Below, piece after piece: positions 11,991 to 41,005 of a stretch of DNA of 58,512 nucleotides. How positions within the stretch are numbered: position 1 is the first letter of the stretch; the number at the start of each line of letters is the position of its first letter. Both the position numbers and the translations under genes were made by a program. This stretch comes from Oceanospirillaceae bacterium (GTDB taxonomy: Bacteria; Pseudomonadota; Gammaproteobacteria; Pseudomonadales; Balneatricaceae). The notes beneath the pieces were generated by a model. It was given only the letters and a program-made list of their open reading frames with translations. It was not told the origin of the DNA and made no database searches. The stretch is from positions 1 through 58,512 of the forward strand of contig JABXIM010000242.1 of assembly GCA_013373085.1 (NCBI GenBank). Reading direction: 5' to 3'.

Positions 11991-13253
11991 ATGACACTGA
12001 ATGACTGGTTAAGTCGAATCGAAGCCTGCCATCCCAGCGATATCGAGCTGGGTCTCGACCGTGTCCGTGAGGTGGCTGACGCCCTGGCGCTCGATTTCGG
12101 TGATACCCGTATCGTGACCATTGCCGGCACCAACGGCAAGGGCTCGACCCAGACTTTTCTCGACGGCATGCTGCGCGCCAGCGGTCTGAGTACCGGTTGT
12201 TACAGTTCGCCGCATTTTCTGCGCTACAACGAGCGCGTTCGCTTTAGTGGCGTAGAGGCGGACGATAATGAACTCTGCGATGCCTTCGCCGCGGTTGAAA
12301 CCGCGCGGGGCGATATCCCGCTGACCTATTTCGAATTCGGTACCCTGGCCGCGCTCAAGCTTTTCGCCGAGCGCAGACCGGATGTTTTGCTGCTCGAGGT
12401 GGGGCTGGGCGGCCGGCTTGATGCAGTCAACATCGTCGATCCGGATGTCGCCGTGCTGACCACGGTGGCGCTGGACCATACCGACTGGCTCGGCGACACC
12501 CGCGATGCCATCGGCCGCGAAAAGGCCGGTATTTTCCGCCCCGGGCGTCCCGCGGTCTGCGGCGATGCGGATCCGCCCTCGAGCGTGGAGACGGTTGCCG
12601 GTGACCTCGGTGCCGCTCTTTATCAGGTCGGTCAGCAGTTTGACTGGCGAGCCGAGGGTGCGGGCTGGAGCTGGCAGGGGTTGGATGGCAGCGGCCGGAA
12701 GCTGAGCCTGGACGGGCTGCCGCTGCCCGGATTGCCGACGCCCAACGCTGCGACGGCATTGCAGGTTCTGCATCTGCTGCTGGAGTCGCCCGAGCGTGCC
12801 GCAATTGAAAAGGCGCTCGAGCAGGCGTCGATGACCGGCCGGATGCAGCGAACCCTGCTCGATGGCGCCGAGTGCATACTCGATGTCGCGCACAATCCGG
12901 AAGCGGCAGGCTATATCGCCGGCCGGCTGGCGCAGATGCCGGCCGGTGGGCGTCGTCACCTGTTGCTGGGCATGCTCGGCGACAAGGATGTGTCCGGTGT
13001 TATCGGCGCGCTGGCGCCGGTTACCGACCGCTGGTATCTGGCGGGGCTCGAAGGTCCCCGGGCGCAGAGCGGTGAGCGCTTGGCGCAGGTGCTTGAACAG
13101 CAGGTGCCTGGCGCCAGCAGCAGCGTCCATGATGATGTGGCCTCTGCGCTCCTGGCCCTGCGGCGCGAGCTGGAGCCGGGCGATCGAGTGCTGATTGCCG
13201 GTTCCTTCTTTACCGTGAGTGCGGCGCTGGCCGAACTCGAACTGACAGGCTGA
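11991..13253 (+). CDS. folC: bifunctional folylpolyglutamate/dihydrofolate synthase
   Basis: Adds glutamate to dihydropteroate and folates using ATP. 420 residues; the P-loop is GTNGKGS at residues 46-52, then the Mur-ligase-like signatures YSSPHFLRYNERV, EVGLGGRLDAVN, LDHTDWLG and the C-terminal DVAHNPEA. The start ATG 11991 gives the normal N-terminus. The stop is three bases before the next ATG, so folC and the SPOR protein are coupled. Confidence 0.96.
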   Translation: MTLNDWLSRIEACHPSDIELGLDRVREVADALALDFGDTRIVTIAGTNGKGSTQTFLDGMLRASGLSTGCYSSPHFLRYNERVRFSGVEADDNELCDAFAAVETARGDIPLTYFEFGTLAALKLFAERRPDVLLLEVGLGGRLDAVNIVDPDVAVLTTVALDHTDWLGDTRDAIGREKAGIFRPGRPAVCGDADPPSSVETVAGDLGAALYQVGQQFDWRAEGAGWSWQGLDGSGRKLSLDGLPLPGLPTPNAATALQVLHLLLESPERAAIEKALEQASMTGRMQRTLLDGAECILDVAHNPEAAGYIAGRLAQMPAGGRRHLLLGMLGDKDVSGVIGALAPVTDRWYLAGLEGPRAQSGERLAQVLEQQVPGASSSVHDDVASALLALRRELEPGDRVLIAGSFFTVSAALAELELTG

Positions 13254-26958: not shown

Positions 26959-27040
26959 GGTCATATCCTCAGTGAGCAATATGGTTGTACGCCCTTGTGG
27001 GCCGTTGGTGGCGCCAACCTTCGGGAAGCCTTGGCGCCTG
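26959..27040 (-). promoter_or_regulatory. ROSE-like RNA thermometer in the hsp20 leader
   Basis: On the transcript, an 8-bp stem GGCGCCAA/TTGGCGCC is followed, just before the start, by UUGCU-CACUG-AGGA. UYGCU facing the AGGA ribosome site is the diagnostic pairing of ROSE thermometers of small heat-shock genes. Sequence match is seen directly; temperature sensing is inferred. Confidence 0.72.
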
Positions 27041-27047
27041 TAAAAAT

Positions 27048-27076
27048 ATATAGGGATGCCGCCGGGGGCATTCAAC
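27048..27076 (-). promoter_or_regulatory. sigma32-like heat-shock promoter
   Basis: Reading leftward: GTTGAAT (27076-27070), 14-base spacer, CCCTATAT (27055-27048), close to the CTTGAAA N14 CCCCATNT consensus. It would start the hsp20 transcript near 27040. Confidence 0.7.
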
Positions 27077-27170
27077 CCTGATCGAGAAATTTTTTTCTGT
27101 GCGGTAGTGGTCTGTCGACGGCGCCGGGTCGCGGAGTGCTGCGGCTCGGCGCGGATAGAGGATGGGGCCG

Positions 27171-27569
27171 TTACGACTGATTGCCAAACGCGTCCGGATC
27201 ATTGGTGATGCTGACGTCGACGCTACGGGTGGGAATGCGAAAATCGTAGACCCGTTCCCAGTCGGCGCCCGGTACCCGCTCCCAGACGGTGCCGGCATTG
27301 TAGGCCAGCTTCTCTTCCAGTGTAGGATCCAGACCGCAGAGCTTGTCCAGTGGCACCGGCATCAGGTTGGTCGCTTCGTCGTCGAGAAAACTGTCGTCCT
27401 CGTAGCCCGTGAACAGTCGCCAGCCGGTATCGTTGAGATGTTCGGGCACGGTCTTGTACATGAAACGCACCGGCAGCTGCTCGTCGAACACCAGGCGCGA
27501 GACCAGCGCCAGAAAGCCGTTCTTGGTCTGATTGGTGTCGCCGCTGGTGGGTTTGTCGGATTCGGACAT
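27171..27569 (-). CDS. DUF2185 (immunity-protein-like) protein
   Basis: 132-residue cytoplasmic protein recognised as DUF2185 from [35 protein letters not shown] and [22 protein letters not shown] 27569 has a perfect AGGAGG six bases upstream. DUF2185 proteins are sometimes listed with immunity proteins (Imm33-like) of toxin systems, but no toxin gene is nearby, so here it is best taken as a protein of unknown role. It stands alone between hsp20 and a palindromic repeat. Confidence 0.8.
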
Positions 27570-27631
27570 GGGGCCTCCTGTGATTCTGTGCCCGATATTG
27601 TAACGCCAAACCGGCGCAATGTTCGCTTGGA

Positions 27632-27713
27632 TGCAGGGTGCCGGTGAGTGCAACGAACCGCATCGCCCTCTTCAGGGATTGGTGCGGCGCGCTTCGCTTA
27701 CCGGCACCCTACA
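27632..27713. repeat. 82-bp imperfect palindromic repeat (REP/MITE-like)
   Basis: Left arm TGCAGGGTGCCGGTGAGTGC and right arm GCTTACCGGCACCCTACA are inverted copies around a short centre. The right arm recurs near 48.47 kb (GCTTACCGGCACCCT), showing a dispersed family. No transposase is present. Confidence 0.75.
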
Positions 27714-27737
27714 ATGCGCCGATTCTACGGTACAAAA

Positions 27738-27765
27738 CGAAAACCCCGCCGGAGCGGGGTTTTGG
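27738..27765 (-). terminator. acnB terminator
   Basis: AAAACCCCGC (27740-27749), CGGA loop, GCGGGGTTTT (27754-27763). Lies 24 bases past the leftward acnB stop; T runs on both strands. Confidence 0.92.
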
Positions 27766-27786
27766 TCAGTCATGTTCTGAAGTCGA

Positions 27787-30384
27787 TCAGGCTTCGACGG
27801 TCGGGATCACGCTGGACGCTTTCTCGACGTAGTTCGGCATCTGATGGAAGTTCAGGTAGCGATAGATTTCGCCGGACATGCTGTTGAGGTTGGCGGCGTA
27901 CTGCAGGTACTCCTCGACAGTCGGCAGCTTACCCAGAACCGCGGCGACGGATGCCAGCTCGGCCGACGCCAGGTAGACGTTGGCGCCGGTACCCAGGCGG
28001 TTGGGGAAGTTACGGGTCGAGGTGGAGACCACGGTAGCGTTGTCCGCGACGCGAGCCTGGTTACCCATGCACAGCGAGCATCCCGGAGTTTCGATGCGGG
28101 CGCCGGCGCGGCCGAAGATGCCGTAGTAGCCTTCCTCGGTGAGCTGGGCCTGGTCCATCTTGGTCGGCGGTGCTACCCACATGCGGGTCGGCAGCGACTG
28201 CTTGGCGTTCTCCAGCAGCTTGCCGGCGGCGCGGAAGTGGCCGATGTTGGTCATGCAGGAGCCGATGAACACCTCGTCGATGTTTTCGCCGGCAACCTCG
28301 GACAGCAGACGGGCATCGTCCGGGTCGTTCGGCGCGCAGAGGACCGGTTCCTTGATTTCCGAGAGGTCGATCTCGATCACCGCAGCGTACTCGGCATCGG
28401 CGTCGGCGCGCATCAGGCTCGGGTTGGCCAGCCACTCTTCCATCGCCTTGATACGGCGGGAGATGGTGCGCTCGTCACCGTAACCTTCGGCGATCATCCA
28501 CTTCAGCATCACGATGTTGGACTGCAGGTACTCGGCAACGGAGTCTTCCGACAGGGTGATGGTGCAGCCTGCGGCGGAACGCTCGGCAGAAGCGTCGGAC
28601 AGCTCGAATGCCTGCTCGACGGTCAGTTCCTCGAGGCCTTCGATTTCCAGTACGCGACCGGAGAAGATGTTCTTCTTGCCGGCCTTGGCAACGGTCAGCA
28701 GACCCTGCTTGATGGCGTAGTACGGAATCGCGTGTACCAGGTCACGCAGGGTGATGCCGTCCTGGCGCTGGCCCTTGAAGCGCACCAGTACCGATTCAGG
28801 CATATCCAGCGGCATGACGCCGGTGGCCGCGGCGAAGGCGACCAGGCCCGAGCCTGCCGGGAAGGAGATGCCCAGCGGGAAACGGGTGTGGGAGTCACCA
28901 CCGGTGCCGACGGTGTCCGGCAGCAGCATGCGGTTCAGCCAGGAGTGGATAACGCCGTCACCCGGACGCAGCGACACGCCGCCGCGGTTCATGATGAAGT
29001 CCGGCAGGGTGTGGTGGGTGTTGACGTCGACCGGCTTCGGGTAGGCCGAAGTGTGGCAGAAGGACTGCATGGTCAGGTCGGCGGAGAAGCCGAGGCACGC
29101 CAGGTCCTTCAGTTCGTCACGGGTCATCGGACCGGTGGTGTCCTGAGAACCTACGGTGGTCATCTTCGGCTCGCAGTACATGCCCGGGCGTACGCCCTCC
29201 ATGCCGCAGGCCTTGCCGACCATCTTCTGAGCCAGGGTGTAGCCCTTGCCGGTATCGGCCGGCTGTTCCGGCTTGCGGAACAGGTCGGAGTGGCCGAGGC
29301 CCAGCGCTTCGCGGGCTTTCTCGGTCAAGCCGCGACCGATGATCAGCGGGATACGGCCGCCGGCGCGCACTTCGTCCAGCAGGACCTGGGTCTTGAGTTC
29401 GAAGCGGCCCAGCTCTTCGCCGGTCTCGTGGTTCTTGACCACGCCTTCGTACGGGTAGACGTCGATGACGTCGCCCATTTCCATCTTCTCGACCGGCATC
29501 TCGATCGGCAGGGCGCCGGCGTCTTCCATGGTGTTGTAGAAGATCGGGGCGATCTTGCCGCCGAAGCAGTAGCCGCCGGTGCGCTTGTTCGGCACGTAGG
29601 GAATGTCGTCGCCGAAGAACCACAGCACGGAGTTGGTGGCGGACTTGCGGGAAGAGCCGGTACCGACGACGTCACCGACGTAGGCGACCGGGAAGCCCTT
29701 GGCCTTGACCTCTTCGATCTGAGTCAGCGGACCGACTTCACCCGGCTTGACCGGTTCGATGCCCTCGCGCGCCATTTTCAGCATGGCGTTGGCGTGCAGC
29801 GGGATATCCGGGCGGGACCAGGCGTCCGGTGCCGGCGACAGGTCGTCGGTGTTGGTTTCGCCCGGCACCTTGAACACGGTAACGGTGATCTTTTCAGCGA
29901 CTTCCGGCTTGCTGGTGAACCATTCGCCATCGGCCCAGGACTGCAGGATCTGCTTGGCGAAGGCGTTGCCGGCTTCGGCCTTTTCCTGAACATCGTGGAA
30001 GGCGTCGAACATCAGCAGGGTGTGGGACAGCGCCTTGACGGCGGTGGCGCCGAGTTCCTGATCGTCGAGGCAGGCGATCAGCGGCTGGATATTGTAACCG
30101 CCCAGCATGGTACCGAGCAGCTCGGTGGCCTTGACCTTGTCGATCAGCGGCGAGTTGGCATCACCCGTGGTGATGGCGGCCAGGAAGCCGGCCTTGACGT
30201 AGGCGGCCTGGTCGACGCCGGCCGGTACGCGGTTGACGAACAGGTCCAGCAGAAACTCTTCTTCGCCCGCGGGCGGATTTTTCAGCAACTCAACCAGGGC
30301 AGCTGTCTGTTCAGGATCCAGGGGTTTCGGCGGCACGCCTTCCTGGGCCCGTTCCTCTACATGTTTGCGATAAGCTTCAAGCAC
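27787..30384 (-). CDS. acnB: bifunctional aconitate hydratase 2/2-methylisocitrate dehydratase
   Basis: Main TCA-cycle aconitase, isomerising citrate to isocitrate; AcnB apo-forms also bind mRNA. From GTG 30384 ([16 protein letters not shown]) the protein has 865 residues, the E. coli AcnB length; GAGGG lies eight bases upstream, and the extension from 30414 is unconserved. The HEAT-like N-terminus is clear ([20 protein letters not shown]), as are the swivel domain and the 4Fe-4S cysteines in [12 protein letters not shown] and [12 protein letters not shown]. Single gene with a strong terminator. Confidence 0.97.
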
Positions 30385-30766
30385 GATATAGCCCTCATCA
30401 GTTGTCGCTTCCAAAGCCTTTTAATGGCTCGTTGGGGCGGCTTTGGTCTTGCATCGACCCTGGCATGTCCAGACAGATTTGTAATGCCTGTACAGCGATC
30501 TGTTCCGGGATGGCCGAAAGATCGAATGTTGATTGGCGGCGCCAATAATATCCCAAGGGCGCTCTGAAGTTAAGATTTGTCGACAATTTCGTTGGTTATA
30601 CCTTAGCCGAAACCTAAGGTAATGTATCCATATAAAATCAATAAAAACAAAAGGATATAAAATATACCTCTCTATTTATGTTAACTATTTCCGGCATTTA
30701 TAATGGGTGTCGTATTTTCGTCAATCAATAACTTAGCGGTGACTGCGAAGATAGGCTCCCGTGCCA
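30385..30766. promoter_or_regulatory. 382-base acnB upstream region with palindrome
   Basis: No gene. AT-rich between about 30.60 and 30.72 kb. TACCTTAG (30599-30606) and CTAAGGTA (30614-30621) form a perfect 8-bp inverted repeat with a 7-base spacer, resembling an operator. The likely acnB promoter lies further upstream, giving a leader of about 300 bases. Confidence 0.5.
30697..30724 (-). promoter_or_regulatory. putative sigma70 promoter for acnB
   Basis: Leftward TTGACG (30724-30719), 16-base spacer, TATAAA (30702-30697). It is the best promoter match in the region and points to acnB. Confidence 0.5.
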
Positions 30767-31441
30767 TCAGTCGGCCCGGAGCAGTATTTTGTCGCCCGTC
30801 ATAACCGGCGTTTCCTTGTGTCTGGCATTGTTAATATGCTCATCGATTGGCCACAGCTCGAAGTCGCCCGGGAGCTGCGGCTGCAGATAGGGCATCAGGG
30901 ATTCGGTATCGGTATCCGGGCTCAGCCAGCGTTGCAACTGATCGGCCTCCAGCATGACCGGCATGCGGTTATGGATGCGACGGAAGCCCGGAACCGCGTC
31001 GCAGGTGACGATACAGCAGGAGAGAATCGAGCCCTCGCCATGGCCCCAGTGATCCCAGAGACCGGCGAAGGCGATTGCGCGATCGGTCGGGCGGATCAGC
31101 CAGGGCTGTTTCTTGCCGTCCTCGGTATGCCACTCGATAAAGGACGATGCCGGCAGGATGCAGCGCTGGTGGCGAAACGGCGCCCGGAAGGCGGGACTTT
31201 CGTTAACGGTTTCGGCGCGGGCGTTGAACATCGAATAGCGGGTACCGGGCTCCTTGACCCAGGATGGGATCAGCCACCAGCGCATTTCGCGGAGTTCGTA
31301 GCCGTGGTCTCCCCGACGGATCACCGGCACCTGTTCGGTCGGCGCAATGTTGTAGCGCGTCTCGAGGTGCCGGTCGATCCCGAACTCATCCAGTAGTGCC
31401 TGGGTAAAGGGGTCGTCGCTGATATTGTAGCGGCCGCACAT
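30767..31441 (-). CDS. SRAP domain protein (YedK/HMCES)
   Basis: 224-residue SOS-response-associated peptidase fold protein that forms a covalent link to abasic sites in single-stranded DNA. The catalytic Cys2 follows Met (MCGRYN); other active-site residues are Asn in RYNIAPTE, Glu in SSFIEW and His in HNRMPVML. AGGAGG lies upstream of the ATG. It is divergent from the sensory operon, separated by 363 bases. No LexA box was recognised. Confidence 0.93.
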   Translation of the reverse strand: MCGRYNISDDPFTQALLDEFGIDRHLETRYNIAPTEQVPVIRRGDHGYELREMRWWLIPSWVKEPGTRYSMFNARAETVNESPAFRAPFRHQRCILPASSFIEWHTEDGKKQPWLIRPTDRAIAFAGLWDHWGHGEGSILSCCIVTCDAVPGFRRIHNRMPVMLEADQLQRWLSPDTDTESLMPYLQPQLPGDFELWPIDEHINNARHKETPVMTGDKILLRAD

Positions 31442-31666
31442 GTCGGTCCTCCTGTGACGTTCAGATTTTAGCGTAGCAGCCGCTCCGCGCCGCGAGAGGC
31501 TTGGCGACGAAACGTCTGGGTGCCAGTCTATTTATACCGTTATCTATTTGGCAGCCACGATCACGCGAGGGTGATCATGCAGTGGGAGGGCTGGTTGACG
31601 AGCGATGAATATCTGAGCGGCGGATGTCGTTGGCTTGATAGACGTCAATAAAAGGGTTCGGCGGGT

Positions 31667-31695
31667 TTGCCGGCGTGCCGGCGCGCCGGTATACA
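31667..31695 (+). promoter_or_regulatory. putative sigma70 promoter of the six-gene sensory operon
   Basis: TTGCCG (31667-31672), exactly 17 bases, TATACA (31690-31695). It would start transcription near 31702, ten bases before a strongly paired leader element. The rest of the 363-base interval upstream holds only a small inverted repeat GATCAC/GTGATC (31559-31576). Confidence 0.5.
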
Positions 31696-31701
31696 GGTGT
31701 T

Positions 31702-31804
31702 GCTTTGGAATCTATGAATAAGTCCCAATGGGGCGCTGGAAGCCCCGTAGTGCGCTACTGGGACCTGTTCATAGGTTCCCTTTCAGGGACAGGAGGGGCC
31801 GAAA
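31702..31804 (+). promoter_or_regulatory. structured leader RNA (three-way-junction-like) before the sensory operon
   Basis: Nested perfect pairings: CTATGAA (31712-31718) with TTCATAG (31768-31774); GTCCCA (31722-31727) with TGGGAC (31759-31764); inside them hairpins GGGGC/GCCCC (31730-31746) and GTAG/CTAC (31747-31758). The two outer helices are separated by a TAA/CTG internal loop. A further stem TCCC/GGGA (31777-31789) abuts the AGGAGG ribosome site (31791-31796). I do not recognise a known riboswitch class. Several GGA triplets, one in the first hairpin loop, would also suit RsmA/CsrA binding. Confidence 0.65.
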
Positions 31805-32251
31805 ATGGAACCGTTCGGACAGGACGACACCAACCCGAGGGCGCAGGCCCGAATCCGCAAGCAACTGGCGTTGCTCAATACCCAGGAAGACCGCCGCCTG
31901 TTGTACCGCAGTGGCGACGAATCGACCGCAGTGTTGCGCTATCTGCAACGCAGTGTCGCGGCTCGACCGCAGGCGCTGCGCCAGCACATCAGGCGCATCT
32001 ACCTGGCGGTGCAGTGCCAGGACAGCCCACAGCTGTGCGGCGCAGTGACCGACCTGATGCTGGTGCTCAAGACGCGCGGGACCACGCTTCAGCGCCGAAT
32101 CATCGACCAGATCGAGCCGCTGCTGCAGCCCGAGCAACACGAGCGTTTTCGCACCGCGCTGGATCGCCGCGATCCGCAGGCGCTGGCGCAGCTGCCGATC
32201 GACGAGTCGGTGCTGTGCAACAGCGGCTACTTCCTGCGGATGCCGGCATGA
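31805..32251 (+). CDS. uncharacterised helical protein, first gene of sensory operon
   Basis: 148-residue soluble protein not recognised as any family. It is Arg/Gln/Leu-rich and predicted mostly helical (for example RAQARIRKQLALLNTQED, LRQHIRRIYLAVQCQDSPQL, RRIIDQIEPLLQPEQHERF), without signal peptide or membrane helix. A strong AGGAGG precedes ATG 31805 directly after the folded leader. Its TGA overlaps the next ATG (ATGA). The helical-repeat look suggests a scaffold or adaptor, which is an inference. Confidence 0.8.
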   Translation: MEPFGQDDTNPRAQARIRKQLALLNTQEDRRLLYRSGDESTAVLRYLQRSVAARPQALRQHIRRIYLAVQCQDSPQLCGAVTDLMLVLKTRGTTLQRRIIDQIEPLLQPEQHERFRTALDRRDPQALAQLPIDESVLCNSGYFLRMPA

Positions 32252-33399
32252 CCGCCCCGATCAACGATACCGTTGCGCTGATCGGATTTTCCGCGCGCGA
32301 ACAGAACCTGCTCGAAGTCTTTTTTTCCGGCAGCGATGCCCGGGGGCTGACGTTGCAGAACCCCGAGCGGGCCTCGGCGCTGCTGATCAACATGGATACC
32401 GATTCGTCGCTCAGATCGTTCCGCACCTGGGCCGAGGACCGCAAGGAACGGAGACCGGTCATCGCTGTGGTCGATTCGGAAACCGTGCCCGACGGTCTGA
32501 TAGCGTTGCCCCGGCCGCTGACGCTGACGGCTCTGAAACAGGCGCTGCACAAGCTGCGGGGAGAGCTCAAGCTGCGTCGCGACCGTGCCGGCACGGCCGT
32601 CGCGGCAGGCGCTGACAAACAGCACCGCGTGCCCGGCGCAGAAACGGCAGCGACTGCGGTCGACCAGGATACCTTCAGGGCGGTGGTGGCCGAGGCGCGG
32701 CTGACGTTGCCGCCGACAGGGCCTTCTGGCGGGCATACCGCTTCCGGCAGGCTGCGGCGACTGCTCGACTGGTCGGAGTCGCTGCGCCAGGAGCTTGAGC
32801 AGCAAAGCTGCGGTTCGCTGCCGGATCTCGACGTATCGCGCGAACCGGACCGCCGCCGGCTCGAATTCAGGCTGCAGGGCAGTTTTCTGGCAGCGGTGCT
32901 CAAGGCCGTGTCGGTGGCCCGCAAGCGCGGATGCGCCACGCAGGTGCTTGGCGTGCCGGGCGCGCTGATCTACTTCCCGGGACAGGACTGCTTCAGCTAC
33001 GACCTGGACCCGGAGCTGCTGCTGCAGATGACGCGGGCACGCTTTGGTCCGGACGAGTTGCGCACCGCTGAGCGGGCGGACCTGACCGAGCCCAGGGCAG
33101 CCAGCGCAGGCCGTGAGGAACTGCTCTGGTTCGTGGCGCTGATGAGCGCCCGCGGCCGGCTGCCGGCAGGGATGCGTCTCGATCACGCGCGGCAGCTGCA
33201 GCGTATGCCGGACTTCTCGCGTCTGCTTCGCACTCCCCACGGCAACAGTATCGCGGAGCTGTGGCGCTCGTCGCCGCACAGTGCCCTCGATGTGGCGACG
33301 CTGCTCGGCGTACCGCAGCGTTGCGTGATTTCGTTCATGGTCGCGGCGGAGGCTGCCGGGCTATTCAAGCGCAAACAAGGAGCAAGGAATGAGCGCTGA
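32248..33399 (+). CDS. uncharacterised protein with degenerate receiver-like N-terminus
   Basis: 383 residues. The N-terminal 110 (VALIGFSAREQNLLEVFF, SALLINMD, RRPVIAVVD, GLIALPRPLTLTALKQALHK) follow the strand order of a response-regulator receiver with a KP-like RPL end, but the phospho-acceptor Asp pocket is not evident. A basic linker leads to a C-terminal region (about 210-383) ending in a winged-helix-like segment (HSALDVATLLGVPQRCVISF). Start ATG 32248 is coupled to the previous stop; the frame is open far upstream but that part is shadow. It overlaps the next gene by 11 bases. Confidence 0.78.
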   Translation: MTAPINDTVALIGFSAREQNLLEVFFSGSDARGLTLQNPERASALLINMDTDSSLRSFRTWAEDRKERRPVIAVVDSETVPDGLIALPRPLTLTALKQALHKLRGELKLRRDRAGTAVAAGADKQHRVPGAETAATAVDQDTFRAVVAEARLTLPPTGPSGGHTASGRLRRLLDWSESLRQELEQQSCGSLPDLDVSREPDRRRLEFRLQGSFLAAVLKAVSVARKRGCATQVLGVPGALIYFPGQDCFSYDLDPELLLQMTRARFGPDELRTAERADLTEPRAASAGREELLWFVALMSARGRLPAGMRLDHARQLQRMPDFSRLLRTPHGNSIAELWRSSPHSALDVATLLGVPQRCVISFMVAAEAAGLFKRKQGARNER

Positions 33400-34039
33400 A
33401 TCCGTAACACCGTCCGAGCGCAGGGAGGCGGTGCGGTACTTCCAGGTGAGCCCGACCGGTGCCTTCTACGCCACCCTGAGCCCGGATTCCGAGCCGATGC
33501 GCATGCTGCTGTTGCAGGTGCTCAGTTCCGATATCCCGGTACCCCACGTCCCGCAGTTGCTCGGCCGTCTGACCGGGCTGTCGCAGGAGTCCGCCGAACG
33601 CCTGCTCGAACAGATGCAGGCGCGCGGTCTGCTGTCGCTGGTGGAGAAACCGCTTCCCGTCGCGGCCGGAGCGCTGGAAAAGGTTTTGCCGGAGCTGCTG
33701 GCGCCGCTCGGCGAAAACAAGGTGATGCTGGCCGACCAGCAGGGCTTCGCGCTGGCCAATTCCGGATTCGGCGCGGAAGAGGCGGAGGCCGTTGCCGGCA
33801 TGGCCGGCGACCTGATGGCGCTCGGCGATCGGCATCAGCGCCTGATCGACACCCACCTGGAACTGTCCGGCTGCTCCTGGGCGCTGGTCAACGCCGTGGG
33901 TCAGAGCGAACTGGGGTTCTGGGTCCTCTGCGTGGGCCGGGAAAAGTTTGTTTTGGTGATCGAAGGCATGCCTTACCTCAACCGTCAGCCGTTCGTGGAT
34001 CTGGCGTCACTGCTGATTCGTCGTTATCTCGATACCTGA
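33389..34039 (+). CDS. winged-helix plus roadblock-like protein
   Basis: 216 residues. Residues about 30-90 look like a small winged helix (LLLQVLSSDIPVPHVPQLL, GLSQESAERLLEQMQARGLL). The C-terminal 120 residues (KVMLADQQGFALANSGFG, EEAEAVAGMAGDLMALGDRH, LGFWVLCVGREKFVLVIEGM) have the strand-helix pattern of a Roadblock/LC7 or similar longin-type domain. No membrane helix. Family assignment is by pattern only. Together with the next gene it gives two such domains in one operon. Confidence 0.76.
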   Translation: MSAESVTPSERREAVRYFQVSPTGAFYATLSPDSEPMRMLLLQVLSSDIPVPHVPQLLGRLTGLSQESAERLLEQMQARGLLSLVEKPLPVAAGALEKVLPELLAPLGENKVMLADQQGFALANSGFGAEEAEAVAGMAGDLMALGDRHQRLIDTHLELSGCSWALVNAVGQSELGFWVLCVGREKFVLVIEGMPYLNRQPFVDLASLLIRRYLDT

Positions 34040-34085
34040 ACAGGTTCGTACGGAACCTGGCACGACCTTGAATAAGGAGATTTGT

Positions 34086-34448
34086 ATGCGTGCGGAAATG
34101 CTCAATTCCATCCTGCGGGACCTGAACAGCACCTCCGGTGAAATCGAAGCCTGTGCGGTGATTTCCACCGACGGTCTGGTGATCGATGCCCTGTTGCCGG
34201 TCGGTATGGACGAAGACCGCGTCGGCGCGATGAGCGCCGCCATCCTGTCGCTCGGCGAGCGCACCGCTCGGGAGCTGGCCCGGGGCGAGCTGGAGCAGGT
34301 GCTGGTGAAGGGCTCGGAGGGCTATATCCTGATGACCCACGCCAACGTCGAATCGGTGCTGACGGTGGTCGCCAAGCCCAACGCCCGGCTGGGGCTGATC
34401 TTCCTCGACGTCAAACGCGCCGCCGAGGCGCTCGCCAAAGTCCTCTGA
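34086..34448 (+). CDS. Roadblock/LC7 domain protein
   Basis: 120-residue single-domain protein with a good Roadblock/LC7 match: ILRDLNSTSGEIEACAVIST, DGLVIDALLPVGMDEDRVGA, MSAAILSLGERTARELARGE and LTVVAKPNARLGLIFLDVKR. AAGGAG precedes ATG 34086. In bacteria such proteins often regulate MglA-type small GTPases, as MglB does, but no GTPase gene is in the window. It follows the previous gene by 46 bases. Confidence 0.9.
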   Translation: MRAEMLNSILRDLNSTSGEIEACAVISTDGLVIDALLPVGMDEDRVGAMSAAILSLGERTARELARGELEQVLVKGSEGYILMTHANVESVLTVVAKPNARLGLIFLDVKRAAEALAKVL

Positions 34449-34476
34449 AGCCCGCTCGACACGACAGGAGGTGCCG

Positions 34477-34950
34477 ATGTCACAACACGCATCCCGCGAG
34501 GTCCTGATCCGTTATATGGACGGGCGCGAGCGGACGGCGATCGTGCGCGAAGATGAAGTGCCGTATCCCGACGGCAAACTGATCGTCTCGCGTACCGATC
34601 CAAACGGAATCATCACCCATGCCAACCAGGCGTTCGTCGACATGTCCGGCTACAGGCGGGACGAACTGATCGGCGCCAACCACAACATCCTGCGTCACCC
34701 GGACATGCCGGCGGCGGCGTTCCAGGGATTGTGGGAAACCATTCAAAATGGCGCCAAGTGGCAGGGGTACGTCAAGAACCTTTGCAAGGACGGCCGCTAT
34801 TACTGGGTCAAAGCCACGGTGATCCCCAATATCCGCCAGGGGCGGCTGGTGGGCTACACCTCGGTGCGGCGCAAACCCTCCCGCAGCCGAATTCGCGAAG
34901 CCGAGGCGCTTTATGCCGGGATGATGAAGGAGGGTCGACATGCCGTTTAA
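34477..34950 (+). CDS. stand-alone PAS domain protein, Aer-type
   Basis: 157 residues, almost only one PAS domain: NGIITHANQAFVDMSGYRRD, NHNILRHPDMPAAAFQGLW, WQGYVKNLCKDGRYYWVKA, VGYTSVRRKP. These stretches are very like the FAD-binding PAS of the aerotaxis receptor Aer (HNMVRHPDMP, WVKNR-type), but the HAMP, membrane and signalling parts are missing. ATG 34477 has AGGAG six bases upstream. It may sense redox or oxygen for the operon products. Overlaps the next gene by 11 bases. Confidence 0.88.
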   Translation: MSQHASREVLIRYMDGRERTAIVREDEVPYPDGKLIVSRTDPNGIITHANQAFVDMSGYRRDELIGANHNILRHPDMPAAAFQGLWETIQNGAKWQGYVKNLCKDGRYYWVKATVIPNIRQGRLVGYTSVRRKPSRSRIREAEALYAGMMKEGRHAV

Positions 34951-35686
34951 CTTTACCGTCAGTCCGGATTTCGGCCCGGATCACGTCTCCGGCTGGTTTT
35001 ATTTCAACACCTGGCTGCAGCGCCAGCTGGGCGTCGATATCCATCTGGAGCTATACGATGGCTTCGAACAGCAGCGGGCCGATATTCGGGCCGGCAAGGT
35101 CGACCTGATCTACGCCAATCCCTACGATGCGTCGATGCTGGTGCGCGAGCTGGGGTTCCAGGCGGTGGCGCGTCCTGCAGCGCGGCGCGACGAGGCGGTG
35201 ATCGCGGTGCCTGCCGACAGTGCGGCCAGCTGTGTCGAGGACCTGGTACCGGGTATGCGCCTGGCGACCACGGCAGATCCCGATGTCCATACCATCGGCA
35301 TGATCATGCTGGAGTCGGCGGATCTCGACAAAACCAATATCGAGCAGCGTGAGTACGAGTCCTACGTGCTGATCGCCAAAGCGCTGATCCGGGGCGAGGC
35401 CGATGCCGGCTTTTTCCTCAAGCAGAGCTATGACGAGCTGTCGGAGCTGATTCGCGGCCGGCTGCGGTCGCTGGTCAGCAGCCAGATCGGCGTCGTTCAC
35501 CATGCGCTGCTGGTCGGACCGCGACTGGCCGGGCGTGCCGGCGACCTCGCCGACCTGCTGATGACGATGCAGGACGATCCAAAAGGGGGCTATGTGCTGG
35601 AAAGCATGGATATACGGGGATGGGAGCGCATGAGCGTCGAACAGACGGAGTTCATGATCGACCTGATCGATACCCTGGTGGACTGA
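34940..35686 (+). CDS. PhnD-like periplasmic-binding-fold protein without signal peptide
   Basis: 248 residues resembling phosphate/phosphonate ABC transporter binding proteins: VSPDFGPDHVSGWFYFNTWL, DGFEQQRADIRAGKVDLIYANPYDA, MRLATTADPDVHTIGMIMLE, LIAKALIRGEADAGFFLKQS. No hydrophobic signal sequence precedes the domain and no permease or ATPase gene is nearby, so it should be cytoplasmic. Role as a ligand sensor is inferred. Last gene of the run; a weak stem follows at about 35.7 kb. Confidence 0.85.
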   Translation: MPFNFTVSPDFGPDHVSGWFYFNTWLQRQLGVDIHLELYDGFEQQRADIRAGKVDLIYANPYDASMLVRELGFQAVARPAARRDEAVIAVPADSAASCVEDLVPGMRLATTADPDVHTIGMIMLESADLDKTNIEQREYESYVLIAKALIRGEADAGFFLKQSYDELSELIRGRLRSLVSSQIGVVHHALLVGPRLAGRAGDLADLLMTMQDDPKGGYVLESMDIRGWERMSVEQTEFMIDLIDTLVD

Positions 35687-35774
35687 GAGTGCAGGGACGG
35701 GCAGGGCTATTTTCGCTTTGCCCTCCTGTGCAAACGATTGTACAGGGACGGTTAAAGCAAGGTTGCGTCAGCCG

Positions 35775-36218
35775 TTAAGCGTTCGGGCCCCGACCGGGTT
35801 GATACAGCTGAACGTCCTCCTGTTCGCTGGCGCAGTTGCGCGCCACCAGGCCGACCGCCTGTTCCTGGTCGCTCAGGTTGACCGCCTGATGCGGCACACC
35901 CTCCGGAATATAGAGAAAGTCGCCGGGACCGTTGATCACCGAGCGTGCCAGCTTTTCGCCGTAAAACGTTTGCACCCGGCCACTGAGCAGGTAGATGGCG
36001 GTCTCGAACCCGCAGTGCAGGTGCGGCTCGGAACGCGCCCCCGGCGGTATCACCACCAGGTTCATCGAGATCCCGTGGGACCCCGCGGTGCGCTCGGAAA
36101 TGCCGACGAAGTAGGACAGTTTCTGCAGCGTCTCGCTGCCGGCGGCCGGATGCACGGTCACGACCTCGTCATTCGAACGTGGCTGCTTGTTGCGCCATTT
36201 TCTTCGGCCCTGTGACAT
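35775..36218 (-). CDS. cupin domain protein
   Basis: 147-residue single cupin. Start ATG 36218 (MSQGRRKWRNKQ) has AGGAG upstream; the frame to 36257 is not used. The core has the metal-binding motif HLHCGFETAIYLLSGRV and the second motif GPGDFLYIPEGVPHQAVNLS. A basic N-terminus is followed by HPAAGSETLQKLSYFVGISE. Convergent with the sensory operon. The substrate is unknown. Confidence 0.86.
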   Translation of the reverse strand: MSQGRRKWRNKQPRSNDEVVTVHPAAGSETLQKLSYFVGISERTAGSHGISMNLVVIPPGARSEPHLHCGFETAIYLLSGRVQTFYGEKLARSVINGPGDFLYIPEGVPHQAVNLSDQEQAVGLVARNCASEQEDVQLYQPGRGPNA

Positions 36219-36450
36219 CTGAGGCTCCTGCTGTTCCGATGTCTTTCGATATTCCAAGTTTAGGACAGTCGATTGCCCGCATGATCGCCAACCATTCTAA
36301 GGGCGGTTTATTCAGGCAGCCGGCGGGCTGACAGGTGCTGTCTCGGAAAGGACCATTTCTATGTGGGGTGGCGATGGGCTGCAGTTGGCTGCAGGCTGTG
36401 TGGAGTCGACAAAAAACGGGGCGGACGGGGCGAACACTGCAGTGGGTCGA

Positions 36451-36495
36451 TTAAAATAGTCGCACATCGCCAGACCACTGTGCTCTGGCGATGTG
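36451..36495 (-). terminator. terminator of the small Cys-rich gene
   Basis: Perfect 12-bp stem CACATCGCCAGA (36463-36474) / TCTGGCGATGTG (36484-36495) with a 9-base loop; reading leftward it is followed by CGACTATTTTAA. Fits the end of the leftward gene at 36515. Confidence 0.72.
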
Positions 36496-36514
36496 TCGGA
36501 CGGCTCTCGCCGCG

Positions 36515-36784
36515 CTATCGTTCGATAAGGGTTTCGTGTGCCTTAAGCTTTGCGAGAAGGGACTGACGCTTTTCGTCGCTCAGCCAGTCATTTATCCAGG
36601 CGCTGATGTGGGATCTGTGATTGGGTGTTTTTTTCCACGCCTTATACGCCTTGATATGCGACCCGCAAATGCAAGACGAGCCGTCAGTCTTGACTACGCA
36701 GTCGCATGGAAAAAGCGAGCTCGACTCGAACTGCTTGTCGATCCAGTTTATGACGACCGTCTTTTGCGGCTTACTCAAATCCAT
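36515..36784 (-). CDS. small Cys-containing hypothetical protein
   Basis: 89 residues, MDLSKPQKTVVINWIDKQFE at the start, AAGGA upstream of ATG 36784. A compact Cys motif CDCVVKTDGSSCICGSH could bind zinc or iron. The rest (YKAWKKTPNHRSHISAWIND, WLSDEKRQSLLAKLKAHE) is helical and Lys-rich. I do not recognise the family. Base composition is lower in GC than the neighbours, hinting at transfer; a terminator follows it, supporting that the gene is real. Confidence 0.62.
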   Translation of the reverse strand: MDLSKPQKTVVINWIDKQFESSSLFPCDCVVKTDGSSCICGSHIKAYKAWKKTPNHRSHISAWINDWLSDEKRQSLLAKLKAHETLIER

Positions 36785-37109
36785 CGATGATAATTCCTTA
36801 GGGGCTGTTTTCGCTCGCGTGATGTGTCTGGGTGACCTTCCAAGCACGCGGCGGCATTCTAGTGCGGACTGTCGCCAATTGCTGCAATCGGGCGTTAGAC
36901 TTTGGTCATAAAAGAAGGCTCGACATGGACCGACTTAGCGATAAGTCGGCGTCTAATCACCCATTCACGGTTCAGTTCGAATCTATTTGTGACGTCACCG
37001 TTGCGGTTGGAGCTGTGAGTGGCCTGCGGCCTGATTATGGTTGCCGTCAGCTTTTCCAAAGTGGCGGCGGGCATCCGGCATCCTTCTTGGGCTGAGGCGC
37101 CCCGGCCTG
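36785..37109. other. AT-richer interval with GNRA-type hairpin
   Basis: No confident gene. CCGACTTA (36930-36937), GCGA, TAAGTCGG (36942-36949) is a perfect 8-bp stem with a GNRA tetraloop. A 56-codon frame starts at ATG 36925 after AAGAAGG, but nothing supports it. The region ends in the miaE promoter. Confidence 0.4.
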
Positions 37110-37115
37110 TATAAT
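37087..37115 (+). promoter_or_regulatory. sigma70 promoter of miaE
   Basis: TTGGGC (37087-37092), 17 bases, perfect TATAAT (37110-37115); transcription would start near 37122, leaving a very short leader. Confidence 0.7.
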
Positions 37116-37144
37116 CCGCCCGTTTTTAAAACATGGCGGATTCC

Positions 37145-37753
37145 ATGGACACCCTCGACGAAATCAAAGCATTCCTCGGCTGCGAAACCCCCGACAGCTG
37201 GATACAGGCGGCGCTGGAGAACCAGGACGTGCTGCTGATCGATCATGCCCACTGCGAGAAGAAGGCGGCATCCACGGCGATGTCGTTGATGTTCCGTTAC
37301 GTCGAGCGTACCGATCTGCTGAACAAGATGTCGCGCCTGGCGCGCGAGGAGCTGATTCATTTCGAGCAGGTGCTGGCGATCATGGAGAAGCGGGGGATTG
37401 TCTACGATCACATGTCGCCGGCGCGTTATGCCGGCGGGCTGCGGTCCGAGGTGCGAACCTACGAACCGGGCAAGCTGGTGGATACGCTGATCGTCGGTGC
37501 CTTTATCGAAGCGCGCTCGTGCGAGCGCTTCGCCAAGCTGGCGCCCTACCTGGACCCGGAGCTGTCCAAATTCTACCGCTCGCTGCTGAAGTCAGAGGGG
37601 CGCCATTACCAGGATTACCTGGGGTTGGCGCAGGATGCGGCGGGGGAGGCGATCGACGCGCGCATCGAGACTTTCCGTCGGATCGAGAACGAGCTGATCC
37701 TGTCGGAAGACGATAGCTTCCGTTTCCACAGCGGCGCGCCTGCGGCGGCCTGA
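37145..37753 (+). CDS. miaE: tRNA-(ms2io6A)-hydroxylase
   Basis: Diiron enzyme hydroxylating the isopentenyl group of 2-methylthio-N6-isopentenyladenosine at tRNA position 37. 202 residues; Glu and His ligands are visible in DHAHCEKKAASTAMSL, EELIHFEQVL, GAFIEARSCERFA and SEGRHYQDYLGLA, the ferritin-like four-helix set. ATG 37145 is chosen since GGCGGA precedes it; ATG 37133, four codons earlier, is possible but has no ribosome site. Single gene with its own promoter. Confidence 0.92.
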   Translation: MDTLDEIKAFLGCETPDSWIQAALENQDVLLIDHAHCEKKAASTAMSLMFRYVERTDLLNKMSRLAREELIHFEQVLAIMEKRGIVYDHMSPARYAGGLRSEVRTYEPGKLVDTLIVGAFIEARSCERFAKLAPYLDPELSKFYRSLLKSEGRHYQDYLGLAQDAAGEAIDARIETFRRIENELILSEDDSFRFHSGAPAAA

Positions 37754-37761
37754 ATAAACCT

Positions 37762-37845
37762 GTGGGAGCGGCGTACCCAAAGGGCACTTCCGCGCCGCGA
37801 ATAGGTCTTGGTGCATCTTGATTCGCACCGGGGCGCCGCTCCCAC
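37762..37845. repeat. REP-like inverted pair
   Basis: GTGGGAGCGGCG (37762-37773) and CGCCGCTCCCAC (37834-37845) are perfect 12-bp inverted copies, similar to the GTGGGAGCGG core of Pseudomonas REPs. A related remnant GGGGTGCCGCTCC is at about 41.06 kb. Lies between convergent miaE and lpxH. Confidence 0.75.
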
Positions 37846-37868
37846 GCGAATACCCCAAGGGAAAGCCA

Positions 37869-38594
37869 TCACTCGATCGGGAAGTCGATCAGCTCGAACC
37901 CCGAATCGTCGAGCTCCAGATACCAGCCGCGCCGGTCCCAGTCGCCGAGCACAATGCGGATGCCGCTGCCGTCACCCAGCTGATTCCGGTGCACCGCCGG
38001 GCGGTGGGTGTGGCCGTGAATCAGTTGCTCGACACCGGCGTCCAGCATCGCCTCGCGGACGGCCTGCGGATTGACGTCCATGATCTCGTCGGATTTCTCC
38101 ATGCCCCGGGCCTTGCTGGCTTCGCGCAGCTGGCGCGCGATCGCCATGCGCTGTTCGACGGACTGCGCCAGGAACTGGCGTTGCCAGTTGGCATCGCGTA
38201 CCTGGTTGCGAAATGCCAGGTATTCGGCATCGTCGGTGCAGAGCTGGTCACCGTGCATCAGCAGGATCGGGCCGGCCGGATGCTCGATGCAAAACGCCTC
38301 GGGCAGCAGCTCGCCACCGATTCGGGCCATGAGCGCTTCGCCGACGAGAAAATCGCGGTTGCCGTGCTGGAAGTACAGCCGGGTGCCGCTGGCGGAGAGG
38401 TGCGCCAGCGCACCGTATACGTCATCGAGCCCCGGCATCGGCGCGTCATCGCCGATCCAGGCCTCGAAGATGTCGCCGAGCAGGTAAAGCTCGTCGGCGC
38501 CGCTGGCCGTTTCCCGCAGAAAATGGAGAAACGCCCCGGTCAGGTCGGGGCGTTCCGGGCGTAGATGAAGATCTGACGCAAAGAGTCGTCGCAT
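37869..38594 (-). CDS. lpxH: UDP-2,3-diacylglucosamine diphosphatase
   Basis: Lipid A synthesis enzyme cleaving UDP-diacylglucosamine to lipid X. 241 residues; calcineurin-like metal motifs are SDLHL (Asp8, His10), GDIFEAWIGDD, HGNRDFL, HGD and HGHTHRPAVH. Length and the order ppiB-lpxH match Pseudomonas. It starts nine bases after the ppiB stop, so the two are cotranscribed leftward. Confidence 0.95.
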   Translation of the reverse strand: MRRLFASDLHLRPERPDLTGAFLHFLRETASGADELYLLGDIFEAWIGDDAPMPGLDDVYGALAHLSASGTRLYFQHGNRDFLVGEALMARIGGELLPEAFCIEHPAGPILLMHGDQLCTDDAEYLAFRNQVRDANWQRQFLAQSVEQRMAIARQLREASKARGMEKSDEIMDVNPQAVREAMLDAGVEQLIHGHTHRPAVHRNQLGDGSGIRIVLGDWDRRGWYLELDDSGFELIDFPIE

Positions 38595-38603
38595 GCCGAG
38601 AGA

Positions 38604-39098
38604 TTAGTCTTCCAGCGTTGCGGATTCGATGATGACGTCCTCGACCGGAACGTCCTGGTGGCCGGCGCGGAAGCCGGTCTTCACGGCCTTGATCTTGTTG
38701 ACCACGTCCATGCCTTCGACGACCTTGCCGAATACCGCGTAACCCCAGCCCTGGGTGGTCTTGGCGGTGTGGTTGAGGAAGCTGTTGTCGTTGACGTTGA
38801 TGAAGAACTGGGCGGACGCCGAGTGCGGGTCCATGGTGCGGGCCATGGCGATGGTGCCGGTGTCGTTCGACAGACCATTGTCAGCTTCGTTTTCGATGCT
38901 GGTGCCGGTCTTCTTCTCTTTCATGCCCGGTTCCATGCCGCCGCCCTGGATCATGAAGCCGTCGATGACGCGATGGAAGATCACGCCGTCATAGAAGCCT
39001 TCGCGCACGTACTTTTCGAAGTTGGCGGCGGTTTTCGGCGCCTTGTCGTGGTTGAGTTCGATCTTGATGACGCCGTGATTGGTGTTGAGAATTACCAT
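38604..39098 (-). CDS. ppiB: peptidyl-prolyl cis-trans isomerase B (cyclophilin)
   Basis: 164-residue cytoplasmic cyclophilin without signal peptide ([21 protein letters not shown]). Catalytic Arg and surrounding residues are in [15 protein letters not shown], with [20 protein letters not shown] and [17 protein letters not shown]. Divergent from glnS and upstream of lpxH. Confidence 0.95.
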
Positions 39099-39205
39099 TC
39101 GTACAGTCCTGATAGGATTTTTATGAACGCCGCCATTATAACGAAATGGTGGCGATTCGCATCCCGGGAAGTGTCACGCGCCTTCGCTCGACCGGACGAT
39201 ACGTA

Positions 39206-39211
39206 TATAAT
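39206..39211 (+). promoter_or_regulatory. -10 element of glnS
   Basis: Perfect TATAAT 48 bases before the glnS ATG; the -35 at 17-base spacing (TTCGCT) is weak, so confidence in the full promoter is limited. Confidence 0.45.
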
Positions 39212-39258
39212 ATTGCGACTTTTTCGCTGTCAGGACAGACTTGGACGCCCAGCCGACT

Positions 39259-40941
39259 ATGAGCAAACACGAAACCGTCAAGCCGACGAACTTTATCCAC
39301 CAGATCATCGAGAAAGACCTTGCAGAAGAAAAGGTTGCCGGTGGTCAGGTCATCACACGTTTCCCGCCGGAGCCGAACGGCTATCTGCATATCGGTCACG
39401 CCAAGTCCATCTGCCTGAACTTCGGCACCGCCGAAAAATACCAGGGCACCTGCCACCTGCGCTTTGACGACACCAACCCCGAGAAGGAAAGTCAGGAGTA
39501 CATCGACGCCATCGCCGAGGACGTGCGCTGGCTGGGCTTCAAGTGGGGTGGCGATATCCGCTACACCTCGGACTACTTCGACCAGCTGCACCAGTGGGCG
39601 GTATACCTGATCGAGCAGGGCAGGGCCTACGTCGACAGCCTCAGCGCCCATGAGATGCGCGAGTTCCGCGGCACCCTGACCGAGCCGGGCAAGAACAGCC
39701 CCTACCGCGAGCGTTCCGTCGAGGAGAACCTGGAGTTGTTCGAGCGCATGCGCAACGGCGAGTTCGACGAGGGCGACTGCGTGCTGCGCGCCAAAATCGA
39801 CATGGCGGCGCCGAACATCAACCTGCGTGATCCGGTGATCTACCGTATCCGCAAGGCGCACCATCACCAGAGCGGCGACAAGTGGTGCATTTATCCGTCC
39901 TATGACTTCGCCCACGGTCAGTCCGACGCCCTCGAGGGTATCACCCACTCGATATGTACCCTGGAGTTCGAGGACCACCGTCCGCTGTACGACTGGTTCA
40001 TCGAGAACCTGCCGGTGCCGGCACAGCCCCGCCAGTACGAATTCGCGCGCCTGAACCTGAATTATACCGTTACCAGTAAGCGCAAGCTGAAGCTGCTGGT
40101 CGAGGAAAAGCACGTCGCGGGCTGGGACGATCCGCGCATGCCGACCATCTCCGGTCTGCGCCGTCGCGGCTACACGCCGGCGTCGATCCGCAACTTCTGC
40201 GACATGATCGGCGTGACCCGCTCCAACGGCATCGTCGACATGGGCATGCTGGAAGCGGCGGTACGGGACGACCTGGATGCCAACGCTCCGCGCGCCATGT
40301 GCGTCACCCGTCCGCTGAAAGTGACTGTCAGCAACTTCGCCGAGGGCGGCGAAGAGTGGTTCGAACTGCCGGCACACCCGAAGGACGAGTCGATGGGCCT
40401 GCGCAAGGTGCCTTTCACCCGCAACCTGCTGATCGAGCAGGAAGACTTCGAAGAAGAGAAACCGCGCAAGTGGAAGCGTCTGGCGCCGGGCGATGCGGTG
40501 CGCCTGCGTGGTGCCTACGTCATCACCTGCGACGAGGTGATCAAGGACGAGGCGGGTAATGTCGTCGAACTGATCTGCAGCTACGACCCGGCGACCAAGG
40601 GCGAAAACCCGACCGGGTACAAGCCCAATGGCGTTATCCACTGGGTCTCGGCCAATCACTCGGTGCCCTGCGAAGTGCGCCTGTACGACCGCCTGTTCAC
40701 CGAGGCGAACCCGGACGGCGACAAGGAGCGCGACTTCCACAACTTTATCAACCCCGAGTCGCTGGAAGTGCTGACCGACAGCCGCGTCGAGATCGGTCTC
40801 AAGCACGCGGTCGCCGAATCCCACTTCCAGTTCGAGCGTCTGGGTTATTTCAGCGTCGACAAGGATTCGGACGAATCGCGTCTGGTGATCAACCGTACTG
40901 TGACGCTGCGCGACTCCTGGGCCAAGATCCAGGGCAAGTAA
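39259..40941 (+). CDS. glnS: glutaminyl-tRNA synthetase
   Basis: Class I synthetase charging tRNA-Gln. 560 residues from ATG 39259 ([20 protein letters not shown]); the TTG at 39241 is not needed. HIGH motif in [17 protein letters not shown] equivalent in [11 protein letters not shown], and the GlnRS signature [11 protein letters not shown]-terminal beta-barrels bind the anticodon. Ends in a strong palindromic terminator. Confidence 0.97.
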
Positions 40942-40972
40942 GGCTTCAGGCGACAGGCTTCAGGCTGCAAAC

Positions 40973-41005
40973 ACAGGGCCCCGCAATTGCGGGGCCCTGT
41001 TTTTT
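40973..41005 (+). terminator. glnS terminator
   Basis: ACAGGGCCCCGC / GCGGGGCCCTGT around AATT, followed by six T. Just upstream, GGCTTCAGGC is directly repeated (about 40942-40965). Confidence 0.93.

Follow-up and report, generated by a model that had tools for sequence, protein, structure and literature searches.

A GTPase-free Roadblock operon in an Oceanospirillaceae bacterium and its apparent descent from Group 3 mgl-type systems

We analyzed a 58,512-nucleotide stretch of DNA from an Oceanospirillaceae bacterium (assembly GCA_013373085.1, contig JABXIM010000242.1, forward strand; hereafter the window, its genome being G000), in which six intact plus-strand open reading frames (ORFs) span positions 31805-35686. 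We named these genes g1 to g6 in 5'-to-3' order. A sequence-only reading had proposed that they form a cytosolic sensory operon of a new kind, with PAS and PhnD-like parts and without kinase, GTPase or transporter genes. Comparison with relatives leads us, on balance, to regard it instead as derived from a Group 3 mgl-type operon by loss of the GTPase gene, and as probably still specifying one FNR-controlled cytosolic sensor complex. The features of the locus are as follows.

31635..31648, plus strand: FNR-type box TTGATAGACGTCAA, one mismatch to TTGATN4ATCAA
31690-31695: TATACA, a -10-like hexamer, 41 bases after the FNR-type box
31707..31781, no strand assigned: inverted-repeat hairpin in the 5' leader, a dispersed repeat resembling a miniature inverted-repeat transposable element, outside the conserved operon
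31805..32251, plus strand: g1, helical protein of 148 amino acids (aa)
32248..33399, plus strand: g2, 383 aa, degenerate receiver (residues ~5-126), low-confidence linker and C-terminal domain ending in helix-turn-helix (HTH)-like helices
33389..34039, plus strand: g3, 216 aa, N-terminal HTH-like part and divergent Roadblock/LC7 domain
34086..34448, plus strand: g4, 120 aa, Roadblock/LC7 (MglB-like), the most conserved protein of the operon
34477..34950, plus strand: g5, 157 aa, Aer-like PAS protein with an RHPDMP motif
34940..35686, plus strand: g6, 248 aa, PhnD-like solute-binding fold without a signal peptide

The ORF coordinates bear out the close and overlapping layout that had been described, with a 4-base ATGA overlap, an 11-base overlap, gaps of 46 and 28 bases and a second 11-base overlap, in that order; three of the five junctions overlap, as stated. 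The proposed composition was also right. Pfam matches above cut-off were obtained for g4 (Robl_LC7, 2.7e-16), g5 (PAS_3, 1.4e-16) and g6 (Phosphonate-bd, 7.2e-37), while g3 had weak matches to Robl_LC7 (0.006) and HTH (0.007) models, both below the curated cut-offs, and g1 and g2 had none. In NCBIfam, the PAS box of g5 was the sole above-cut-off match among the six proteins. No kinase catalytic domain was found in the six genes with Pfam and NCBIfam, whose kinase models match only the PAS part of g5. The operon indeed has no kinase, GTPase or transporter gene, and with a broad, sensitive GTPase profile (E up to 1) the rest of the window genome also yielded no MglA-like GTPase.

The gene set is conserved among relatives. 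Searches for g3, with the window genome counted, gave matches in 51 of 144 related genomes, of which two were weak and partial (G027 and G051) and unconfirmed by a later g3 profile, and in 62 of 116 same-family genomes by profile search. The order of the six genes is conserved in the Marinobacterium-Amphritea-Neptuniibacter-Nitrincola group, and of 20 loci retrieved from relatives 17 have the full set in this order, so the arrangement is not due to chance; the exceptions are two same-family operons with g1-g4 only, g5 and g6 not being nearby (L041 and L045), and a rearranged locus (L050). A g4 profile search of genome contigs gave at least 545 relatives, from which the best 80 loci (L051-L130) were kept. 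We refer to L051-L096 as the in-group (n=46: Marinobacterium, Amphritea, Neptuniibacter, Nitrincola, Pontibacterium, Neptunomonas, Motiliproteus and unnamed Oceanospirillaceae/Oceanospirillales, a family that we take to be Nitrincolaceae in GTDB) and to L097-L130 as the out-group (n=34: Thiothrix, Leucothrix, Methylococcales, Halothiobacillus, a Burkholderiaceae metagenome-assembled genome and others). L049 and L108 are one contig; L031-L047 share genomes with L051-L096 and are not counted among the 46. All locus counts take in related species and are therefore not independent. Among these best 80 loci, the order g1-g2-g3-g4 is kept wherever the contig permits. In the 70 where 3 kb or more of sequence follows g4, both g5 and g6 are present in 41 of 42 in-group loci (the other has g5 alone) and in 16 of 28 out-group loci, the remaining 12 having neither; g5 and g6 thus travel as a pair. 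Broken frames were found in only one of the 46 in-group loci (L084), and other gaps are contig ends, except for a missing g6 in L093. A first contig scan with g2 as query was uninformative, and a plasmid search with g6 returned one distant match.

Clustering of the flanking ORFs revealed a small GTPase gene in the out-group loci. By profile search, it lies between g2 and g3 in 34/34 out-group loci and 0/46 in-group loci, likewise in L048 and L049, which come from the same order as the window organism, and in none of the 17 loci L031-L047. Outside the group, then, this operon includes a Ras-like GTPase gene, placed between g2 and g3, and the proposal of a new kind of system is not supported. 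In a class-wide sample, g3 was present in 26 of 274 genomes, the window's own included, and the GTPase in 19 of the 21 other loci having g2 or a GTPase beside g3; the two GTPase-free exceptions (L165 and L167) belong to two different families. The operon GTPases are orthologous (59-74% identity to the sequence in the first row) and keep GPVG[AS]GK, GTPGQ and DAR motifs, with T[RQ][MT]D replacing [NT]KxD.

The motifs and partners of this GTPase match the Group 3 MglA systems defined by Wuichet and Sogaard-Andersen (2014; PMC4316618), which, in the part of that paper available to us, are described from beta- and gammaproteobacteria with one or two coupled MglB/Roadblock proteins and a receiver-like partner with a winged HTH and a variable linker. 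The GTPase that lies among the g1-g4 orthologues has the published GTPGQ, atypical G4 and DAR motifs; g4 (by Pfam) and g3 (by predicted fold) correspond to the two coupled MglB-type proteins, and g2, by its receiver-like N-terminus and variable linker, to the receiver-like/HTH partner (PMC4316618). The window operon differs in having no GTPase, and g5, g6 and the FNR box are absent from the available part of the published description (PMC4316618). Because the GTPase is absent from the operon and was not found in G000, we class the window operon as a Group 3 derivative and not a member. The Group 3 locus of Snodgrassella contains mglA, two coupled mglB genes and an orphan mglB, and an mglB-3 allele, of the orphan, altered colony spreading on soft agar; unlike the window operon this locus keeps mglA, and PAS and PhnD genes go unmentioned in the available part of that report (PMC11112851). 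Actinobacterial conservons (Group 2) also retain an MglB-type gene after loss of the adjacent GTPase gene, but, as far as the available text describes them, they have the histidine kinase CvnA, for which the window operon has no equivalent, and their losses are patchy rather than family-wide (PMC4316618). The earlier statement that no described system has this composition therefore stands only for the derived form: neither a PAS-PhnD pair nor a GTPase-free Group 3 operon was found in the literature (titles and abstract openings of the papers listed, with supplements and most subscription papers outside this scope), whereas the parent system is published (PMC4316618).

Several changes accompany the absence of the GTPase. 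The g1 protein has 148 aa in the window and 153-173 aa in 14 in-group loci versus 224-263 aa in 14 out-group loci, and the C-terminal part of g1 in the GTPase-bearing relatives looks weakly TPR-like (TPR_19, E 0.012, below cut-off). At the C-terminus of g2, 12 out-group loci have a basic amphipathic tail that the window and 14 in-group loci lack. The N-terminus of g2 is a receiver fold by structure comparison, a call based on rank, probability and VIA-align Z, with VIA-align covering the receiver part only; HTH-like helices are found at residues 332-369 of the predicted model, whose C-terminal part was compared only within the whole protein. Receiver strand 3 ends in an acceptor-like Asp48 in 16/44 in-group versus 30/31 GTPase-bearing sequences (L084, L087, L093, L101, L116 and L128 being excluded as fragmented, truncated or with odd starts).

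The predicted structure of g3 (predicted local distance difference test score 89.3) has MglB and Ragulator subunits as its best Foldseek matches, the top MglB match having E 2.5e-5 and a template-modelling score of 0.54 by target. The g4 gene is the sole site of a Pfam Roadblock match in G000, the sister genome G005 having none. Its product is more uniform in the in-group (94 vs 71 columns at 95% or above), which may reflect just a younger group. The g5 protein matches the Aer PAS structure 8dik over residues 27-148 (E 8e-35) and shares the RHPDMP motif with Aer, from which it differs as a free 157-aa PAS protein that lacks Aer's membrane and signalling parts.

In the g6 frame, position 34940 is the first ATG, GTG or TTG past the preceding stop and the product begins with the first strand of the domain, leaving no space for a signal peptide. 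The aligned N-termini were leaderless in 9/9 cases (the starts of eight relatives were set by hand to the nearest Met), in agreement with the earlier claim. Like AioX/ArrX and PhnD/PtxB, g6 has a PF12974 domain, but, compared with the part of their description available, it has no signal peptide, is encoded in an operon without a transporter or kinase gene to partner it and lacks the PtxB Ser-Thr-Ser stretch (PMC5908839). An oxyanion ligand had also been suggested; the nearest solved relatives, ArrX (1e-4) and PtxB (0.001, whole sequence), do bind oxyanions, but these scores are marginal and, with the Ser-Thr-Ser stretch lost, the suggestion is weak.

A promoter and a folded leader had been placed before the operon. 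A consensus scan found no sigma-70 promoter upstream; what precedes the operon instead is the FNR-type box, just outside the interval originally described. Such a box (at most one mismatch, within 300 bases 5' of g1) was present in 35/44 in-group loci, with 2.2% expected from shuffles, and in 0/31 GTPase-bearing loci. The scan covered the window and 75 of the best 80 loci, namely those in which g1 was matched and preceded by 200 bases or more of sequence. Chance may account for a few of the 35. The box aligned across five other upstream regions, and was absent upstream of two other GTPase-free operons, from other families. G000 encodes an FNR-like protein that carries a cysteine motif at its N-terminus. 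The putative oxygen-linked FNR-type promoter and the predicted Aer-like PAS protein point the same way. The leader does form a stable hairpin (z -4.2), but it is no operon-specific element: the repeat is dispersed in the window genome (26 matches, this one included) and in three of six same-genus genomes (16 matches in G005, 15 in G003 and 7 in G006). Its arms are frequently found as pairs spaced ~230-265 bases apart. We rejected a conserved RNA, since 13 upstream regions of relatives have no counterpart of this dispersed repeat, and a known RNA, since no Rfam match reached gathering scores within 27000-41000.

Relocation of a related GTPase within the window genome was ruled out by profile searches. 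The broad profile returned only short P-loop scraps (best E 0.0028) in 23 operon-bearing genomes, namely 21 family genomes plus G315 and G270, and gave 7.7e-76 in the positive control G012. Among the 116 family genomes, a related GTPase was found at another locus in 41, all of them g3-bearing, and in 0/54 g3-lacking genomes; 21 of the 62 g3-bearing genomes, including the window's, have neither an operon GTPase nor one at another locus. The association of g3 with a GTPase elsewhere has a Fisher p of 0.011 at genus level (6/9 vs 0/7) and of 0.015 within genus g15 (10/13 vs 0/4, genomes listed), the genome-level value being inflated by relatedness. The other-locus GTPases are encoded by open frames 176-379 aa long, and many are extended at the C-terminus by 140-155 aa. 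Fusion of these GTPases to Roadblock domains is not supported: 12 extensions match neither the g3 nor the g4 profile, a weak test because the same comparison also found no match between g3 and g4, and no Roadblock model was found with Pfam in the extension of the one sequence tested.

Some related arrangements lie apart from this comparison. L131 carries tandem genes of ~320 aa (99-1055 and 1495-2457), each with a Group 3-like GTPase domain, a ~140 aa C-terminal extension and a small ORF after it. A second, diverged g2-GTPase-g4 set is present in a Marinobacterium (G025; L152 4684-6662), and a GTPase similar to that of L152 lies beside a Roadblock-like neighbour in G030 (L151). Six further loci of the class-wide sample have, within the stretch seen, g3 paired with g1 or on its own. 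In L177-L181, from other families, g1 and g3 form a pair and the stretch seen has no g2, GTPase or clear g4, possibly a separate derivative; in L176 g3 lies inside a 481 aa open frame.

The fuller operon consists of g1, g2, a small Ras-like GTPase gene and the Roadblock genes g3 and g4, often with g5 and g6. Comparison shows that operons of the Marinobacterium-Amphritea group have no GTPase gene, a shorter g1, a g2 without the basic tail, an eroding receiver acceptor site and an FNR box upstream; we infer that the GTPase and the accompanying features were lost and not gained. The platform most likely regulates the GTPase in relatives that keep it. Judging from neighbours and from characterised mgl systems, the parent system probably has a role in cell polarity or type IV pilus behaviour: a bactofilin-type ORF family lies upstream in 20 of the 34 GTPase-bearing loci and a FimV/HubP-like family downstream in 21 of the 34 (one member of each was tested). 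Bactofilins and FimV/HubP are tied to cell poles or the cytoskeleton, as the NCBIfam name also indicates. In the window's group, a g3-g4 Roadblock platform, g5 as flavin redox sensor and g6 as small-ligand sensor would probably form one cytosolic complex, produced under FNR control at low oxygen, whose output passes via the pseudo-receiver and HTH parts of g2 instead of a GTPase cycle. More specifically, we tentatively propose that the GTPase was lost in apparently three lineages and that the rest became a GTPase-independent redox/ligand complex, FNR-controlled in the window's group, in which the Roadblock pair relays to g2.

Several observations weigh against this picture. Foldseek found no match for g2 at E 0.001 or better. 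G315 and G270, from other families, have GTPase-free operons in which just one of the two g1 proteins is short and neither g2 has lost its tail; the co-changes are incomplete there, so g1 shortening and g2 tail loss are not obligatory. PilT is present in 12/12 genomes tested, with or without the operon, and does not discriminate for a pilus link. One observation in favour of the picture is itself qualified: the six genes are read as being under purifying selection in six GTPase-free Marinobacterium from median ratios of nonsynonymous to synonymous substitution rates (dN/dS) of 0.081 for g1, 0.158 for g2, 0.043 for g3, 0.011 for g4, 0.029 for g5 and 0.052 for g6, but dS is saturating in this comparison (median dS >1; 7 to 15 usable pairs of 15). 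Between the window and M. litorale, synonymous differences (pS) are saturated and the ratios therefore say little, except that of g4 (0.07). The operon is absent from 6/6 other same-genus genomes searched, and is thus dispensable; in the closest sister, G005 (L145 ~12011-12082), it is cleanly absent as a whole, with the flanks ~70 bases apart. Contamination was rejected as the cause, since the GlnS encoded on the operon contig, the one full-length copy in G000, is 94% identical to that of G005 and 89-90% to those of the five others. In other genera the operon has the same genes beside it (from an ORF family that includes aconitase-like proteins), which makes its loss in the sisters likelier than a gain in the window species. 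Finally, Asp29-Gly30 of g4 is kept in 81/81 sequences and the Asp of this MglB pair is predicted, in the available part of the published analysis, to lie near MglA (PMC4316618), so a GTPase-like partner could exist; and since 41/62 g3-bearing but 0/54 g3-lacking genomes have a GTPase elsewhere, the GTPase may act in trans in many members.

Taken further, these last points would mean that the platform still regulates a GTPase in trans, a related one elsewhere in most members and an unrelated one in the window species. The invariant Asp-Gly pair, the presence of g3 in all 41 family genomes with such a GTPase, and the associations at genus level and within g15 are all consistent with this, but the sensitive profile finds no such GTPase in 21 of the 62 g3-bearing genomes, and in six of those 21 the genes g1-g6 appear to be under purifying selection; we consider it rather unlikely. 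If the operon were instead a relic, its remaining genes drifting toward deletion after the GTPase loss, then its absence from all six same-genus genomes, the ~70-base spacing of the flanks in G005, the reduction of the acid pocket of the receiver, of the C-terminus of g1 and of the tail of g2, and the repeat in the leader would all be expected. The six intact window frames, the single in-group locus with broken frames, the low dN/dS and the conservation of a group-specific FNR box make decay distinctly unlikely. The polarity of change could also be reversed, with the GTPase-free form ancestral and the GTPase inserted later in other lineages; two other families (L165 and L167) have the same arrangement, yet a single orthologous GTPase occupies one position in all 34 loci of several families, including the same-order L048 and L049, and we regard this order of events as very improbable. 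The original proposal, read as an unrelated sensory complex put together anew and without ties to GTPase systems, fits the window composition taken alone, but is hardly tenable beside orthologous seven-gene operons with the GTPase, a comparison that refutes it.

If the tentative proposal of a GTPase-independent relay is true, the operon would encode a Roadblock system in bacteria able to signal with no G protein of its own. Systems of the Group 3 MglA type are widespread in gamma- and betaproteobacteria and almost uncharacterised in the literature covered, and the operon connects them with two possible inputs, the Aer-like PAS protein and the PhnD-like protein of the cytosol. It also provides a natural experiment, a lineage without the switch in which the regulators are kept under apparent purifying selection. 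A non-GTPase role of MglB-type Roadblock proteins is testable by comparing relatives with the GTPase in the operon, relatives with it elsewhere, GTPase-free relatives and operon-lacking sisters.

Downstream of the operon, the gene at window positions 37133-37753 resembles that for MiaE, a tRNA hydroxylase that depends on oxygen; its ORF family lies near the operon in 19 loci.

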